12,897 nt of DNA from Bordetella parapertussis (lineage in GTDB: Bacteria > Pseudomonadota > Gammaproteobacteria > Burkholderiales > Burkholderiaceae_C). Each line of letters begins with the position of its first letter. Within the stretch, counting starts at the first letter, position 1. Where the stretch lies: contig CAMDJS010000053.1 of assembly GCA_945900685.1 (NCBI GenBank), positions 1-12,897 on the forward strand, read 5' to 3'. Shown in pieces: positions 4,600 through 10,409 of this stretch. The notes under the pieces were generated by a model. It had not been told where the DNA came from. It ran no database searches and saw only the letters and a list, made by a program, of their open reading frames with translations. The position numbers and the translations under genes are program-made.

Positions 4600-5529
4600 C
4601 TAGTGAGAATGATGCCCCTGATGCGCCCACAACAAGAAAGCCTCGCGCCCTTCCCTGAGCAAACTCAGTTTTTGACCCACCGGCAAACACAATTTGGTCG
4701 GCACATGACCAAACGGCAAACCCGTCAACACAGGCATCTTCACCTGACTGCGCAACCACGCAACAACCGAGTCGAGTTTGTAGCCCTTGTCATGCGCCGT
4801 CAGTTTGTAATCCGTGAATTGCCCCAGCACAATCGCCTGCTGCTTGGCCAGCACACCAGCATGCAGCAACTGCGTCAACATTCGTTCAATACGGTAAGGA
4901 TGTTCTGCCACATCTTCCAAAAACAAAACACCTTTGTCGATAGCTGGCAAATAGGGTGTGCCTAGCAATGCACACAAAACTGACAAATTACCGCCCCACA
5001 ACACCGCATCTTCGGCCAGCATGGAACGCTTTGGCAAATGCGCCAAATCAGAGGCAGGCAAACGCCATCCCGCCCCTTCCCCCCTGCCCTGCGCCATGTC
5101 ATCAAAACAATCCTGCATGATGTCATCTACCGTCAAAGCACCGAAATCCGCGCACGCATGCGGCCCGGCCCAAGTGTGCGCATCGGTCTTGGCAAGCAAT
5201 CCCATTTGCATTGCAGTGAAGTCGCTGTGTCCGACCCACAAGGTGCCTTGCTTGATAGATGCGGTAATCGCTTTGTAAGGAATTTTTTTCATCAAACGGG
5301 TAATGCCGTAACCACCGCGCGTAAGCATGACGACATCTGCACCGCTGGCGGCCGCACGCCCCAGAGCCAACAAGCGAGTCTCATCGTTTCCTGCAAACCG
5401 CTGTTCGCTGCTCAATGCGTCGGGGTCAAGCTCTACATCGTGGCCTTGCTTTGCAAAGTGCTTGACCGCGCGGCGCAACGCGGCCTTGTCACGTACAGCG
5501 CCTGAGGGAGAAAAAATATAAATATGCAT
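4600..5529 (-). CDS. ldcA: LD-carboxypeptidase, peptidase family S66 (muramoyltetrapeptide carboxypeptidase)
   Basis: S66 enzymes remove the terminal D-alanine from the tetrapeptide of recycled murein fragments in the cytoplasm. The 309-residue form has the family features in order: RGGYG at 71-75, GHSDFTA around the nucleophile (Ser102), GGNLSVL at 179-185, LEDVAEHPYRIERML at 204-218 with catalytic Glu205, and GLPFGHVPTK with His275. The inferred Ser102-Glu205-His275 triad matches the family order. The frame extends to a TTG at 5568, but the ATG at 5529 is preferred: it starts directly at the first beta strand (MHIYIFSPSG) and has AGG about 8 bases upstream. There is no signal peptide, as expected. 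It sits 57 bases downstream of the acid-sugar kinase as the last gene of the long minus-strand run. A functional link to that cassette is not evident. Confidence 0.9.
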   Translation of the reverse strand: MHIYIFSPSGAVRDKAALRRAVKHFAKQGHDVELDPDALSSEQRFAGNDETRLLALGRAAASGADVVMLTRGGYGITRLMKKIPYKAITASIKQGTLWVGHSDFTAMQMGLLAKTDAHTWAGPHACADFGALTVDDIMQDCFDDMAQGRGEGAGWRLPASDLAHLPKRSMLAEDAVLWGGNLSVLCALLGTPYLPAIDKGVLFLEDVAEHPYRIERMLTQLLHAGVLAKQQAIVLGQFTDYKLTAHDKGYKLDSVVAWLRSQVKMPVLTGLPFGHVPTKLCLPVGQKLSLLREGREAFLLWAHQGHHSH

Positions 5530-5586
5530 TTTGAAAACCTGTGAACCATATGTAGGGGTTGAGCGCAAATGTAACTTGCCACAACA

Positions 5587-6954
5587 TCAGTGACCGAACC
5601 CGTTCAAAGCCAATGTGTACAAATCCTCAGCGCCAACCTGTCCGCCTTTGAGCAACACCTCTTTGCCATGTATATGCACATCCTCTGACACCAGACTGGC
5701 GAAATGTGCGTTTTGTGCGAAATGGCTGGCTATGCATTGCAAGGCCTGTGAGCCCAAAGCGCGCATCGTGAAGCTGGATGAATCACCGCCCGCCACCACC
5801 AAGCGTGTCAATGACGTTTGCCGAAAGACCTCGCCAGCCATGCGCGCAAATACCAGACCGATGCGTTGCGCCAACTTCCCCGCAGGCCATTCACGCGTCC
5901 ATTCACGCAGTGAATGTGTATGCGAGACCTCTGGGCCTTCAGCAGTGAAAACCACTACGCTTCGTGCATTTTTCAATGCAATTAAAACTTGATCGATCAC
6001 CAAATCCAGTCCGGCATGATGCTCATCGAACAATAACTCTGGTGTCAACCGCAAACATAAAAAACCGGATTGCCGTGCATGTGCAATTTGTTGGGCAGAC
6101 AAAGCAGAGCAACTGCCAGATAACACCAACAATCGGTCAGTGGCAGACAGTTGCTGCAGCGGTGGTTCGTCCGCTGTCAAAGCGTTGTCTCGCCAATATT
6201 GACCCCAGCCATGCGCCAATCCTTGCGCTGCAATGGCACACACTTGTCGCCGCCGACTGATGTGATGCAAGACAGCCGCGGTGGTCACCACATGTTGCTG
6301 CGTATAGCCATCGAATACAACGCTGTCATGTGAATTTAATTTATCTGCCAAAGATGAAGTATCAAGCGCAGAGTTATCAAGTTCTCGCAAATCCGCTTCT
6401 CGCTCGACTGAGAAACCTTGTTCTCTCAACACCGCAGACAGTTTGGATTCATGCATGGGCGTGACCGGGTGAACCGACATCACTGGGTGTTGATCCAAAC
6501 GGTAAATCTGTTGACCGGCTCGCGCGAAATGGTGTCCAAACACCGTGTACCTGCCGAACTCTGGAGCAGCCGCATGTACCGGCACAAAACAAGTCGGCCA
6601 GACTTGTCGCATCAATTCAATGGCATGCCCCAAACTGCCTGTGACTAGAGAGCTATCGAAAGTTGAACAGCATTTGTATTGAAACAGCGGCACACACAAC
6701 TTCGCAAACGCTTGCAATACAGGCAGTAACTCTTGCGTCATTTCCTGCACATTCAGCGAACGCGCTGTACCCGCAACACCAATGACATCGCATTCGAGGG
6801 CGGCTTGCTCCAACACCTGCTGTGTGGGTAATGTGAAAAACAAACGGGTACGCAAACCGTGTCTGGCGTATTGAGCGGCATTGTCAGACGCACCAGTGAA
6901 ATCATCGCCGTAAAAAAGCACGCGTACGCGCTTGTCTGCGAGTCTCAGATTCAT
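5587..6954 (-). CDS. Four-carbon acid sugar kinase family protein (DUF1537; OtnK/OiaK type)
   Basis: This 455-residue kinase belongs to the two-domain DUF1537 family, which phosphorylates acid sugars or their 3-oxo derivatives with ATP. N-terminal substrate-domain motifs are YGDDFTGASD at 15-24, YKCCSTFDSS at 93-102 and HPVMSVHPVTPMHES at 156-170. The C-terminal nucleotide-binding domain begins near residue 272, with LSGSCSALSAQQI at 278-290 and the glycine-rich LVVAGGDSS at 385-393. It ends in LLKGGQVGAEDLYTLALNG. The frame runs upstream into the RLP gene (to 7071). The ATG at 6954 is chosen because the conserved domain begins 10 residues later and because it lies 4 bases after the RLP stop, a typical coupled arrangement. 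Linkage to an RLP and a dehydrogenase resembles the D-apionate catabolic loci, where OiaK makes 3-oxo-isoapionate 4-phosphate. The exact substrate here is inferred. Confidence 0.9.
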   Translation of the reverse strand: MNLRLADKRVRVLFYGDDFTGASDNAAQYARHGLRTRLFFTLPTQQVLEQAALECDVIGVAGTARSLNVQEMTQELLPVLQAFAKLCVPLFQYKCCSTFDSSLVTGSLGHAIELMRQVWPTCFVPVHAAAPEFGRYTVFGHHFARAGQQIYRLDQHPVMSVHPVTPMHESKLSAVLREQGFSVEREADLRELDNSALDTSSLADKLNSHDSVVFDGYTQQHVVTTAAVLHHISRRRQVCAIAAQGLAHGWGQYWRDNALTADEPPLQQLSATDRLLVLSGSCSALSAQQIAHARQSGFLCLRLTPELLFDEHHAGLDLVIDQVLIALKNARSVVVFTAEGPEVSHTHSLREWTREWPAGKLAQRIGLVFARMAGEVFRQTSLTRLVVAGGDSSSFTMRALGSQALQCIASHFAQNAHFASLVSEDVHIHGKEVLLKGGQVGAEDLYTLALNGFGH

Positions 6955-6958
6955 TTTT

Positions 6959-8170
6959 TCAGCCAGCCTTACCAAAAGTAGCCACTGCTTCGCGTAACTC
7001 CCGATGTGTCTTTGCGGCTGCCTCCAAGGACACACCCGCCATGGCCGCATTCCAGGCCTGACGCAAAGCATTCAAACCTGCGGCAATACCACCGGGATGC
7101 GCAAACAATCCGCCGCCTGCCAAAAACATCAAATCTGGCGACTGCAATTTGTCCCACGTGGGATGCGCTTGCATCACCGTTTGCCCCGAAGAAAACACAG
7201 GCATGACTGTGCAAGGTTTTTGTTGGAACAAGGGTTGAAGACAAGCACGTGCAGATGTAATCACGCTGTTGTCATCTTCTTGAAATTTGTTGGCAATGCC
7301 GTTGACATGCATATGGTCTGCACCGGCGAGTCGCCAAATTTTTTGCCAAGCCACATACGACCAACCGGATTGCACATAGCCCCAACCGTTGCGGTGCGCG
7401 TGAATCGGCAATTGCGCATGTCGGCGAAAAGCATTGAAGCCGGTCATACCCACCGAGTTCAAACTCAACATCACGGCAGTGCCGCCTTCTGCCATCACCA
7501 GATCATGTCGTCGGCGCATTTCATCGAGTTCACCGGTGAGGTTGAAGGCACACATCACCTTGCGTCCACTTCGCTCGGCATGGCGGCGAATGACTTGCAT
7601 GCAAAGCCGCACACGCTCATCAAACGGACAAGACGGTCCATCGGCTTGCAACTCATCGTCTTTGATGAAATCGATACCGGCTGCACACAATTGATCCACC
7701 ATGGCCGCCGTGTCTTGCGCACTCAAACCCACCGACGGTTTGATGATGGTGCCGATCAGCGGTGCCTGTGCAACACCAGTCAGGGTGCGCGTACCTTCAA
7801 TGCCAAAAGCCGGTCCCGGGTAGGCATCAGCGAAAGCCTGCGGCAATTCAATATCCAACAACTTTAAGGCATGCACAGGACGCAATTCATACAAATTGCC
7901 GGCGACAGTCGCCAGCAAGTTCGGCAGCGAAGCACCTACATTTTCCAAGGGCCAGCTCAGCGTCAATCGGTAGTGCTGATGCCCTTCAACGGATGCAAGC
8001 GCTAGAGGCTCTATCTGCCAAGTTGCTGCCGCTCTGGCCTTGAGCGCCTCGTCCTCACCGGGTATGGCGATAAACGTGCCACTCGATTGTTCACCAGCGA
8101 TCAATGCAGCGGTGCGATGCGGATCTGCTGCGGTCGTGAGTTGGTAAATGGCGGTGATGCGTTGTTTCAT
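6959..8170 (-). CDS. RuBisCO-like protein (form IV RLP), probable acid-sugar phosphate cleaving enzyme (OiaX-like)
   Basis: This 403-residue protein has the RuBisCO large-chain architecture: an N-terminal alpha/beta domain to about residue 120, then the TIM barrel. By eye, the active-site residues align as follows. GEQSSGTF gives Glu27 and Thr32 (spinach E60, T65); TIIKPSVGLS gives Lys144 (K175). DFIKDDE at 167-173 gives carbamylated Lys170 and metal ligands Asp172 and Glu173 (K201, D203, E204). HRNGWG gives His259 and Arg260 (H294, R295); HMHVNGIANK gives His288 and loop-6 Lys295 (H327, K334). Ser327 and the GGG at 352-354 complete the phosphate sites. The W66 equivalent is Phe33, and the NLYELRP segment is RLP-like. 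The kinase gene follows 4 bases later and an SDR lies upstream. That fits OiaX, which in D-apionate pathways hydrolyses 3-oxo-isoapionate 4-phosphate to 3-phosphoglycerate and glycolate. The substrate is inferred from context. The ATG at 8170 has no strong ribosome-binding site. Confidence 0.9.
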   Translation of the reverse strand: MKQRITAIYQLTTAADPHRTAALIAGEQSSGTFIAIPGEDEALKARAAATWQIEPLALASVEGHQHYRLTLSWPLENVGASLPNLLATVAGNLYELRPVHALKLLDIELPQAFADAYPGPAFGIEGTRTLTGVAQAPLIGTIIKPSVGLSAQDTAAMVDQLCAAGIDFIKDDELQADGPSCPFDERVRLCMQVIRRHAERSGRKVMCAFNLTGELDEMRRRHDLVMAEGGTAVMLSLNSVGMTGFNAFRRHAQLPIHAHRNGWGYVQSGWSYVAWQKIWRLAGADHMHVNGIANKFQEDDNSVITSARACLQPLFQQKPCTVMPVFSSGQTVMQAHPTWDKLQSPDLMFLAGGGLFAHPGGIAAGLNALRQAWNAAMAGVSLEAAAKTHRELREAVATFGKAG

Positions 8171-8200
8171 AAATTTAAATGGAAGACCTGATTGATGACC

Positions 8201-8977
8201 TCATAAACCTCTGGCCCCACTGGCGAGAAATCCGCCATCAACCGGCATAGCAATACCGGTGATGTAGGAAGCATGTGTGGAGGCTAAAAACTCCACAGTA
8301 GCCGCAATTTCATCCACGCTGCCATAACGTTCCATGGGAATGGCTTTGGCGTATTCCTGACGAAATTGCGCGCTGTGCAACTTTTGCGTCAATGGCGTGT
8401 CCACCGGGCCCGGACAAACCGCATTGGCGGTGATGCCGTGTTCTGCCAACTCAACCGCCATTTGCCTTGTCAATGCAATCACCGCGCCCTTGGAAGTGCC
8501 ATAAGCGGTGCGGCCTTTGCCCACCGCACGCATACCGGCTACTGATGCGATATTGATGATGCGACCCCATTGGTGTTTCACCATCAATCGCGCTGCGGCT
8601 TGGCTGCACAACAAGGTGCCCGTGACATTGATGTTCATGGTGCGCACAAATTCATCCAAGGGAAATTCCAAGAAAGAAGAAACAGTGGCTACGCCTGCGG
8701 AGTTCACCAGAATGTCGCAACGCCCGGTCTGCTTTTCAATCTCTGCAAATGCATGACTGATGGATGAAGAATCAGACACATCCATGGCAACTGTTTTGAC
8801 CTCGTGTCCTTGTGAACACAAATGTTCTGCGGTGAGTCGGGCGGCATCCACATCACGGTCAGCAATAAACACCCGATGACCTTGGTTGGCCAGTCGCTGC
8901 ACTACCGCAGCGCCAATGCCCATGGCACCTCCAGTCACAACAACCACGCGTTGCTGCGTGTTTACATCTCTTGCCAC
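8201..8977 (-). CDS. Short-chain dehydrogenase/reductase (classical SDR), likely sugar or acid-sugar dehydrogenase
   Basis: This 258-residue classical SDR has the Rossmann glycine motif TGGAMGIG at 15-22. Asp40 at the end of beta 2 (FIADRD) usually selects NAD(H). NSAG is at 92-95, and the catalytic set is Asn117, Ser145, Tyr159 and Lys163 (YGTSK). PGPVDT and the C-terminal ITGIAMPVDGG follow. It starts with GTG at 8977, decided by an AAGGAG box at 8990-8985 with 7 bases of spacing; the box overlaps the stop codon of the TadA fusion gene (TAAGGAG). The RLP gene begins 30 bases downstream. Context suggests it oxidises a polyhydroxy acid or sugar to the oxo compound used by the kinase and RLP. 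The family's breadth leaves the substrate open; an unrelated 3-oxoacyl-type reductase is possible but less favoured by the neighbours. Confidence 0.88.
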   Translation of the reverse strand: MARDVNTQQRVVVVTGGAMGIGAAVVQRLANQGHRVFIADRDVDAARLTAEHLCSQGHEVKTVAMDVSDSSSISHAFAEIEKQTGRCDILVNSAGVATVSSFLEFPLDEFVRTMNINVTGTLLCSQAAARLMVKHQWGRIINIASVAGMRAVGKGRTAYGTSKGAVIALTRQMAVELAEHGITANAVCPGPVDTPLTQKLHSAQFRQEYAKAIPMERYGSVDEIAATVEFLASTHASYITGIAMPVDGGFLASGARGL

Positions 8978-8988
8978 TTCTCTGCTCC

Positions 8989-10377
8989 TTAGTTTGATAG
9001 ATGGAAAAATGTTTGTAGCGCGCGTGATGCAATTTCACGACCATGCTCTTGCACAAAATGGCCGGCATGCGGCAACAACACAGGCTCAGGGCAAGCGCTA
9101 ATAAGTTGTTGCAATTCGCGCATCACCGGTTCGCCCAGCACCGGGTCTTGTTGCCCGATAAACATCACACTCCGTCCTTGCCATTCATGCTTTAAAAAAC
9201 GGGCTGCATCGCGGGACACAGCAGCACCCGGACTGTCAACTTCAGATGGCACCATGGGCGGAAACGCTCTTAAAGCGGCACGGTGCCCGGCATCCGGAAA
9301 CGGCGCGTTGTAGGCTGCGCATTCGTCAGCACTCATGTGCGGATTGCCTCTGGCAAACAACTTACCCACATCGAACAAGGGCTTGGCGGCGCACATTTGT
9401 CTCCACGCTAAAAAACCCTCACTCAAGGGCTGCTCGCCAGTTGCTAAGGTGGTGTTCATCACCAACAAAGATTCGTAGCGCCAAGGCTGCGCCATGGGCA
9501 GTGTCAAACCGAGAATGCCGCCCCAGTCTTGCACGACCAATTGAACGCCTTTGAGATCCAAGGCTTCAATGAATTCAAGCAACACATTTCTGTGCCAATC
9601 AACGGAATGTGCGCTGTCTTTTTTCGGTTTATCACTTTTGCCAAAACCAGGCATGTCGGGCGCCACCACGCGGTGCCCTGCCTCTAAAAAAACCGGAATC
9701 ATGTGTCTGTACAAATAACTCCACGCCGGGTTACCGTGCAAACACAGCCAAGTCACTTCGGCATCAGCAGGCCCTTCGTCCAAGTAATGCATGCGCAAAC
9801 CATTGAGGGACGGCAAATCGCTGATGTAATTCGGCTCCCAAGAGTAGCCGGGTAATTCGGCGAACGCACTGTCAGGCGTACGCACCGCGTCATCGCGCAA
9901 ACGAGTTGCCGCCGCTTTGGCTTTGTGGGCCAGCCTTTGTTGTTTAAAAAAAGTTTGTAATGGCTGCGAACATTGCTCAGCCAACACATGGCCTTGGTTG
10001 ACGGTTTGATGGTTCAACTGCGGTTTTGCAAACACATCCATCACAGAACCGCAAGCACCAGTTTTAGGCTCAGGCGCGCCCCACACCACTTTGCCTAGGC
10101 GCGCATTCAAAATAGCACCGGCACACATGGTGCAAGGCTCCAGGGTGACGTACAAAGTGCAATCGTCCAGCCGGTAGTTACCCAACTTGGCAGCAGCTTT
10201 GCGCATTACCAATACTTCAGCGTGCGCGCTCGGGTCGTGTTGCGCAACAGGTGCGTTATACGCTTGTGCAATCACCTGCCCGTCGCGCACCAGCACCGCA
10301 CCGACAGGCACTTCTCCGGCGGCCAAAGCTGCGTCGGCTTGCGCCAAAGCAAGTTGCATGAAATCTTCGTCATTCAT
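8989..10377 (-). CDS. tadA: Fusion: tRNA adenosine(34) deaminase TadA + haloalkane dehalogenase-like alpha/beta hydrolase
   Basis: One uninterrupted frame of 462 residues joins two enzymes. Residues 1-155 are TadA, which deaminates A34 to inosine in tRNA-Arg(ACG). They include HAEV with zinc ligand His52 and proton-shuttle Glu54, and TLEPCTMCAGAI with Cys82 and Cys85, ending in the usual LAEQCSQPLQTFFKQQR. After a linker of about 25 residues, 180-462 is an alpha/beta hydrolase of haloalkane dehalogenase type. It has HGNPAWSYLYR at 214-224, the nucleophile elbow VQDWGG with Asp284 and halide-binding Trp285, cap AWRQM with Trp326, acid Asp411 in GQQDP and base His440 in HAGHF. The set matches subfamily I dehalogenases. 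ATG 10377 is chosen over an in-frame TTG at 10386, since MNDEDFM is the normal TadA start. The methyltransferase stop lies 32 bases upstream. The hydrolase substrate is not known. Confidence 0.9.
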   Translation of the reverse strand: MNDEDFMQLALAQADAALAAGEVPVGAVLVRDGQVIAQAYNAPVAQHDPSAHAEVLVMRKAAAKLGNYRLDDCTLYVTLEPCTMCAGAILNARLGKVVWGAPEPKTGACGSVMDVFAKPQLNHQTVNQGHVLAEQCSQPLQTFFKQQRLAHKAKAAATRLRDDAVRTPDSAFAELPGYSWEPNYISDLPSLNGLRMHYLDEGPADAEVTWLCLHGNPAWSYLYRHMIPVFLEAGHRVVAPDMPGFGKSDKPKKDSAHSVDWHRNVLLEFIEALDLKGVQLVVQDWGGILGLTLPMAQPWRYESLLVMNTTLATGEQPLSEGFLAWRQMCAAKPLFDVGKLFARGNPHMSADECAAYNAPFPDAGHRAALRAFPPMVPSEVDSPGAAVSRDAARFLKHEWQGRSVMFIGQQDPVLGEPVMRELQQLISACPEPVLLPHAGHFVQEHGREIASRALQTFFHLSN

Positions 10378-10409
10378 GCGCCGCAATGTAACCTATGCGG
10401 GCGTTGAAA

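Follow-up and report, generated by a model that had tools for sequence, protein, structure and literature searches.

A short-chain dehydrogenase, RuBisCO-like protein and kinase trio related to the D-apionate pathway and predicted to degrade a branched sugar acid

To our knowledge, few functions have been assigned to RuBisCO-like proteins (RLPs). The described systems closest to the locus treated here are pathways of D-apionate breakdown, one of which, with an RLP transcarboxylase/hydrolase (OiaT), was reportedly described by Carter et al. in 2018. In apiose operons D-apionate is oxidized by ApnO and its carbon skeleton is shifted, which yields 3-oxo-isoapionate. OiaX is, to judge by its NCBIfam name, a decarboxylase; 3-phosphoglycerate and glycolate are the products of OiaT. 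The stretch analysed here (12,897 nucleotides of contig CAMDJS010000053.1, filed under Bordetella parapertussis; hereafter the window) encodes in adjacent genes a short-chain dehydrogenase/reductase (SDR), an RLP and a DUF1537 kinase, as a first-pass annotation had proposed and as is confirmed by gene calls and Pfam matches. Predicted from its genes, the trio of this freshwater bacterium looks like a complete route for the breakdown of a branched sugar acid. The SDR-type trio recurs in soil and plant bacteria and differs from the known apiose pathway; no description of an SDR-type operon was found in the open-licence literature. In the parts covered, PMC11747546 lists for a Rhodobacteraceae strain the enzymes of D-apiose use by the decarboxylase route, reports growth on D-apiose and has no bearing on the SDR.

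The locus shares with the OiaT pathway an RLP gene followed by an OiaK-like kinase gene, the RLPs being about 60% identical with identical catalytic motif residues, whereas ApnL, the Gfo/Idh dehydrogenase, ApnO and the NanR-like regulator are missing and an SDR is present. The RLP superfamily and the kinase partner family are also common to the OiaX pathway, but the window RLP is about 42% identical to OiaX and reaches 397 bits on the NCBIfam model NF042437, below its equivalog cut-off of 700. SDR-type operons on plasmids of Azospirillum, Rhizobium, Agrobacterium, Cupriavidus, Caballeronia and Chimaeribacter contain an RLP, a kinase and an SDR 59–66% identical to that of the window, and differ by their own LysR regulator and transporter (TRAP, KdgT or MFS), another gene order and kinases of 32–36% identity. 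They are annotated as RLP, four-carbon acid sugar kinase and FabG or glucose dehydrogenase, and nothing more. The best solved-structure match to the window RLP is the RLP crystal structure 3nwr (380 bits, about 49% identical), which belongs to a separate clade whose two sampled loci (L163, L164) show neither an SDR nor an ApnO marker.

Partner classes of the RLP-kinase pair

RLP-kinase operons around OiaT are shown to fall into two mutually exclusive partner classes, one with ApnO and one with an SDR. Among 84 non-window clusters an ApnO-like protein (PGDH_C) accompanies the RLP in 46 and an SDR in 13, while 25 have neither and none has both (Fisher p 8.7e-6). The underlying survey comprised a contig scan, of which the best 80 of 554 confirmed stretches were used, together with loci from the family and genus of genome G006, the family of G011, and plasmids; many of the surveyed genomes are metagenome-assembled genomes (MAGs). 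Markers were assigned within 6.5 kb of 140 RLP loci, including redundant window-type loci, one of which (L184) was placed in the SDR class. For the clusters, 113 of 117 non-window rows were aligned (L012, L034, L060 and L184 are missing) and collapsed at 90% identity, and partners were counted within 8 kb; the plasmid loci L229–L233 and L261–L264 lie outside this set.

The surroundings of the two classes differ as well. A NanR-like regulator is found near 42/46 ApnO-type but 0/13 SDR-type clusters, a LysR regulator near 6/46 versus 10/13, ApnL near 14/46 versus 0/13 (p 0.026), Gfo/Idh near 12/46 versus 0/13 (p 0.051) and DctM near 12/46 versus 9/13, with the kinase present in 43/46 and 12/13, respectively. 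Pyruvate kinase occurs near 0/46 ApnO-type versus 3/13 SDR-type clusters (p 0.0088), a count of zero from which a marker-scan match at the ApnO-context locus L064 is absent; its presence near SDR-type clusters fits 3-phosphoglycerate as a product. Pyruvate kinase genes lie in or beside the SDR-type operons L081, L258, L259, L165 and L232. Two genomes, G065 and G009, carry one operon of each type, which suggests two inputs. The sister group of the window lineage (L008, L010, L018, L049) falls in the class with neither partner; TRAP genes stand beside its RLP and kinase, and three of its four loci have an SDR on the opposite strand that is 32–41% identical to the window SDR. PGDH_C was found in none of the seven window-type genomes searched, a set to which the window's own genome does not belong. 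In two of seven window-type genomes ApnL matches below the cut-off of 750 bits were obtained (613 bits in G002, a 104-bit fragment in G007), neither at the trio locus. The ApnL-like protein of G002 (L159, 2800–5551) lies beside a UgpC-like ABC ATPase on a contig other than that of the trio.

SDRs are among the commonest enzymes. The window-type SDR is dedicated to the RLP-kinase module. SDRs resembling it were found in 3 of 200 genomes of the family (E 1e-72) and 2 of 398 of the phylum (E 1e-65), with the top 13 and top 6 candidates per genome scored, respectively; these are four distinct genomes, and RLP and kinase genes are in the neighbourhood in all four. On plasmids the SDR has RLP and kinase genes nearby in 10 of 13 records, all ten at about 59% SDR identity or more. 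Nine of these have both genes within about 6.5 kb and Caballeronia at about 11 kb; five of the ten are from Rhizobium and are not independent. The other three plasmid SDRs, at 53–57% identity, have no RLP or kinase within 10 kb. The SDR tree unites the window protein with those of Azospirillum, Cupriavidus, Caballeronia, Chimaeribacter, Rhizobium and Agrobacterium, and the RLPs of the same organisms fall in different RLP clades. A topology test rejected the placement of every SDR-context RLP in a single clade together with the window group and the sister of that group (p 1.7e-8); one clade of the main alphaproteobacterial SDR-context group, the window group and the sister was not rejected (p 0.097). 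The survey shows that the window-type SDR has joined RLPs of more than one lineage. In many alphaproteobacterial SDR-type operons a second, different SDR lies just upstream of the RLP (L012 at 6063–6959, L017, L027 and others). The window SDR has the motifs TGGAMGIG at residue 15, IADRD at 38 and YGTSK at 159; the acidic end of strand 2 in IADRD is taken by us to mark an NAD-type enzyme.

Identity of the RLP and the kinase

In a careful tree of 69 rows all 11 window-type RLPs fall into a single clade (100/100); its sister is a set of four alphaproteobacterial RLPs (100/98), followed by ten ApnO-context RLPs (97/94), while proteins above the OiaX cut-off form a separate clade (100/100). The window clade and its sister are unchanged in a quick tree of 126 rows. 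Before the trees were built, 13 redundant window-type loci were removed, and three rows were lost because they contained stops or were short. A methionine-salvage role of the RLP is rejected by its score on the NCBIfam model of the MtnW enolase (121 bits, cut-off 513.6). OiaX membership is likewise rejected on the basis of the score given above, the separate clade and differing motif residues: five OiaX rows have D27, G92, Q288 and G327 where the window RLP has E, N, H and S. The earlier statement that OiaX yields 3-phosphoglycerate and glycolate had mixed two enzymes, OiaX being a decarboxylase by its NCBIfam name and the window RLP lying on the OiaT side.

The KDDE metal/carbamate motif (170–173), K144, H259, H288 and K295 are retained in the window RLP, residues mapped to catalytic positions by what we take to be the RuBisCO numbering. 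The motif residues of the window lineage are those of ApnO-context and SDR-context RLPs, which between themselves (64 and 15 rows) show zero separating columns at 85% conservation. The RLP thus groups with RLPs of ApnO/ApnL operons and has the same catalytic motifs. One of these, the Xanthobacteraceae RLP L041, adjoins ApnO and an ApnL above the cut-off (855 bits, cut-off 750); among its 120 listed relatives seven bear the JGI name 3-oxoisoapionate-4-phosphate transcarboxylase/hydrolase, and many others are named just ribulose-bisphosphate carboxylase large chain. According to the parts of PMC6302742 covered, 3-oxo-isoapionate 4-phosphate undergoes decarboxylation and transcarboxylation/hydrolysis by RLPs from Agrobacterium radiobacter and Xanthobacter autotrophicus. 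Clade, shared motifs, JGI names, the context of L041 and these activities make OiaT-type chemistry the likelier one for the window RLP.

The best match of the window kinase is OiaK (NF042436) with 299 bits, under the equivalog cut-off of 700, followed by OxoTetrKin with 143 bits (cut-off 350) and D-threonate kinase with 82 bits (cut-off 450). Its catalytic motifs are intact.

The predicted pathway and its alternatives

We read the trio, with about even confidence, as a minimal catabolic module: a variant of the apionate RLP pathway that is entered through an SDR and would make 3-oxo-isoapionate or a close analogue. The prediction of function is based on the genes, their order and conservation, the exclusive choice of partner, the linkage of the SDR and the identity of the active site. 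The SDR would take the place that the ApnO oxidoisomerase has in apiose operons and oxidize a C2-branched 3-hydroxy acid to its 3-oxo form; the most likely substrate is isoapionate (2-C-hydroxymethyl tetronate) or a near analogue. The DUF1537 kinase, by analogy to OiaK, would phosphorylate the 3-oxo acid, and the RLP, judged by its clade and active site, would split the phosphate in the OiaT manner by transcarboxylation and hydrolysis, presumably into 3-phosphoglycerate and glycolate. An SDR oxidizes only, and a ketol-acid shift is not expected of it; the simplest account would hence be a substrate that is already branched. The first-pass proposal is borne out in part, namely for an acid-sugar-type trio akin to the D-apionate RLP pathway, kept in relatives, with an SDR replacing the usual partner; of the refuting conditions named there, a methionine-salvage RLP and a lack of conservation of the trio both fail. 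Through the partner classes and the linkage of the SDR, the substrate can be tested directly with the three small enzymes and in cultivated hosts, and the trio may underlie the use of a carbon source by common freshwater bacteria.

Several observations weigh against this reading. The kinases of L041 (ApnO context) and L081 (SDR context) score 577 bits each on OiaK, themselves below the cut-off, versus 299 for the window kinase, and near-invariant sites are changed throughout the window lineage (E27A, L142H, H175V, T180G and G226A in 10/10 rows). Because of this low score and the fixed changes the substrate of the window kinase may differ from that of OiaK-type kinases, and the divergence is the main result against an exactly identical substrate in the window. 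In the RLP, 14 columns set the window lineage apart from ApnO-context RLPs; three of them (F94Y, L292I, I355L) are conservative changes within active-site motifs, and by motif mapping no catalytic residue is affected. The OiaT side is defined here by RLPs of ApnO/ApnL operons, not by a characterized OiaT sequence. Isoapionate is not documented as a natural nutrient in the literature covered, and the ApnL-like matches in G002 and G007 could mean apionate use.

That the input is the same as in the known pathway, with the SDR doing the work of ApnO on D-apionate or a stereoisomer and the shift proceeding spontaneously or by another protein, is unlikely. Such an exchange would agree with RLP catalytic residues equal to those of apionate-operon RLPs, with the absence of any RLP that has both SDR and ApnO nearby and with the ApnL-like protein of G002; it is at odds with the co-occurrence of both operon types in G065 and G009, with the class differences in ApnL and in NanR and LysR regulators described above, and with the chemistry expected of an SDR. 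Rather unlikely, too, is another substrate class, either a linear acid (erythronate, threonate, pentonate) or a branched C6 acid; the RLP would then be a decarboxylase or hydrolase of the 3-oxo phosphate. Some DUF1537 kinases act on 3-oxo-tetronates, the window kinase matches OxoTetrKin and D-threonate kinase below their cut-offs and carries the lineage-specific changes, and the transporters of SDR-type operons belong to several acid-type families, all of which would suit such a substrate, whereas OiaK remains the best kinase match and the catalytic motifs of the RLP are unchanged. A 2-carboxy sugar alcohol as the substrate of the module is improbable in our view; an example is 2-carboxyarabinitol, which forms the backbone of the RuBisCO inhibitor that plants themselves make. 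In that case 2-carboxy-3-ketoarabinitol would arise through the SDR and be turned by the kinase into a monophosphate, on which the RLP would perform the late half of the RuBisCO reaction; if so, a relative of RuBisCO would dispose of a RuBisCO inhibitor in plant- and algae-associated bacteria.

Removal of a dead-end, phosphorylatable sugar acid made within the cell, along the lines of the metabolic by-product repair suggested in the first-pass annotation, is very improbable. It would account for the start of the trio 11 nt behind a housekeeping gene, for a number of promoter-like sites no higher than chance (4 seen, 5.2 expected) and for the lack of transporter and regulator markers at the locus. 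LysR, TRAP, KdgT and MFS genes are all absent from the locus in the window lineage, and the TRAP binding protein of SDR-type operons finds just 27–31% matches in 10/10 window-type genomes (with a second seed, at best 32% in seven). Against repair stand the patchy occurrence of the trio (10 of 84 genus genomes), with empty sites in close relatives, and the SDR-type operons elsewhere, which carry LysR together with TRAP in Azospirillum and Caballeronia, with the 2-keto-3-deoxygluconate permease KdgT in Rhizobium and Agrobacterium, and with an MFS transporter in Chimaeribacter. The regulator and acid transporters of these operons argue for an imported nutrient as the input. The missing transporter and the distant TRAP matches leave room for an internal source of the substrate in the window lineage itself.

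Distribution, site and neighbouring genes

The seven nearest loci among the best 80 of 554 stretches are 80–86% identical and come from MAGs labelled Limnohabitans, Comamonadaceae, Burkholderiaceae, Burkholderiales or Betaproteobacteria, some of them lake or pond by label; the next-nearest loci stand at 57–65%. Within the genus of G006 the window-type RLP is present in 10/84 genomes and the 57–60% type in 8 others; in the family, 46 of 399 genomes contain any RLP at E 1e-60. All 11 window-type RLPs are followed by the kinase and ten are preceded by the SDR, the eleventh contig starting inside the RLP. The window type thus combines RLP, kinase and SDR in the absence of ApnO, and the trio recurs in order among related freshwater Comamonadaceae MAGs. 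The three genes, intact and on the minus strand in the order SDR-RLP-kinase (Table 1), are under purifying selection: dN/dS is 0.06–0.19 in 18 comparisons (three genes against six relatives). They are therefore kept by selection, and chance open reading frames or gene decay are rejected.

Table 1. Genes of the trio and the genes flanking it outside the module.
Feature	Coordinates in the window	Strand	Remarks
SDR oxidoreductase	8201..8977	-	258 aa, GTG start; Pfam adh_short_C2 220 bits
RLP	6959..8170	-	403 aa; Pfam RuBisCO_large 214 bits and RuBisCO_large_N 41 bits
DUF1537 (four-carbon acid sugar) kinase	5587..6954	-	455 aa; Pfam SBD_N 153 bits and NBD_C 82 bits
Flank: TadA-alpha/beta hydrolase fusion	8989..10386	-	11 nt upstream of SDR
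Flank: LD-carboxypeptidase (ldcA-like)	4600..5568	-	adjoins tadA where trio absent

The SDR and RLP genes are separated by 30 nt and the RLP and kinase genes by 4 nt. The kinase most likely starts at the ATG at 6954; a start at 7071 was rejected, as the longer frame runs into the RLP gene and among relatives kinase homology begins at the RLP end or directly behind it. Upstream of the trio lie infA, a methyltransferase gene and the TadA-hydrolase fusion, and downstream the genes of the LD-carboxypeptidase, an aldehyde dehydrogenase and a Tll0287-like protein. The translation-gene run proposed earlier therefore holds for infA and the fusion upstream and not for the remaining neighbours. In agreement with the earlier remark, the seeded search for transporter, lactonase and regulator markers gave no match in the window; marker matches depend on the chosen seeds, that for ApnL being an untrimmed stop-to-stop frame of 1019 residues from L118.

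In the window and seven related loci the trio is located between the tadA fusion and ldcA. These two genes adjoin without the trio in 12 loci (L199–L210), and in three of them (L199–L201) the flanks are 78–81% identical to the window. The aldehyde dehydrogenase gene is still present in 10 of the 12, and both this enzyme and the LD-carboxypeptidase are rejected as parts of the pathway on these grounds. The MAG G559 has an occupied (L198) and an empty (L199) site on two contigs, probably from mixed strains. The trio is not bound to the tadA-ldcA site, since in L003 (1–4800) it occupies a second one, after efp, earP and a capsule-synthesis-like gene. Between G006 (L212) and the window, dS is 0.23–0.46 for infA, the methyltransferase, tadA and aldehyde dehydrogenase genes, versus 1.2–2.1 for the trio and 1.5 for ldcA and the Tll0287-like gene. 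With these genes distant and the other neighbours close, this looks like a recombination exchange over a stretch that includes the trio and reaches beyond it.

The 465-residue frame upstream of the SDR matches TadA (196 bits, cut-off 150) and a haloalkane-dehalogenase-type hydrolase (313 bits, cut-off 265); both halves are covered at 21 places in the genus, three of which have an internal stop codon. At the other end of the window, the overlapping plus-strand frames 229–858 and 780–1655 belong to one homology cluster, the second matching Wzy_C O-antigen ligase domains, and may represent one gene split by a frameshift or an assembly error.

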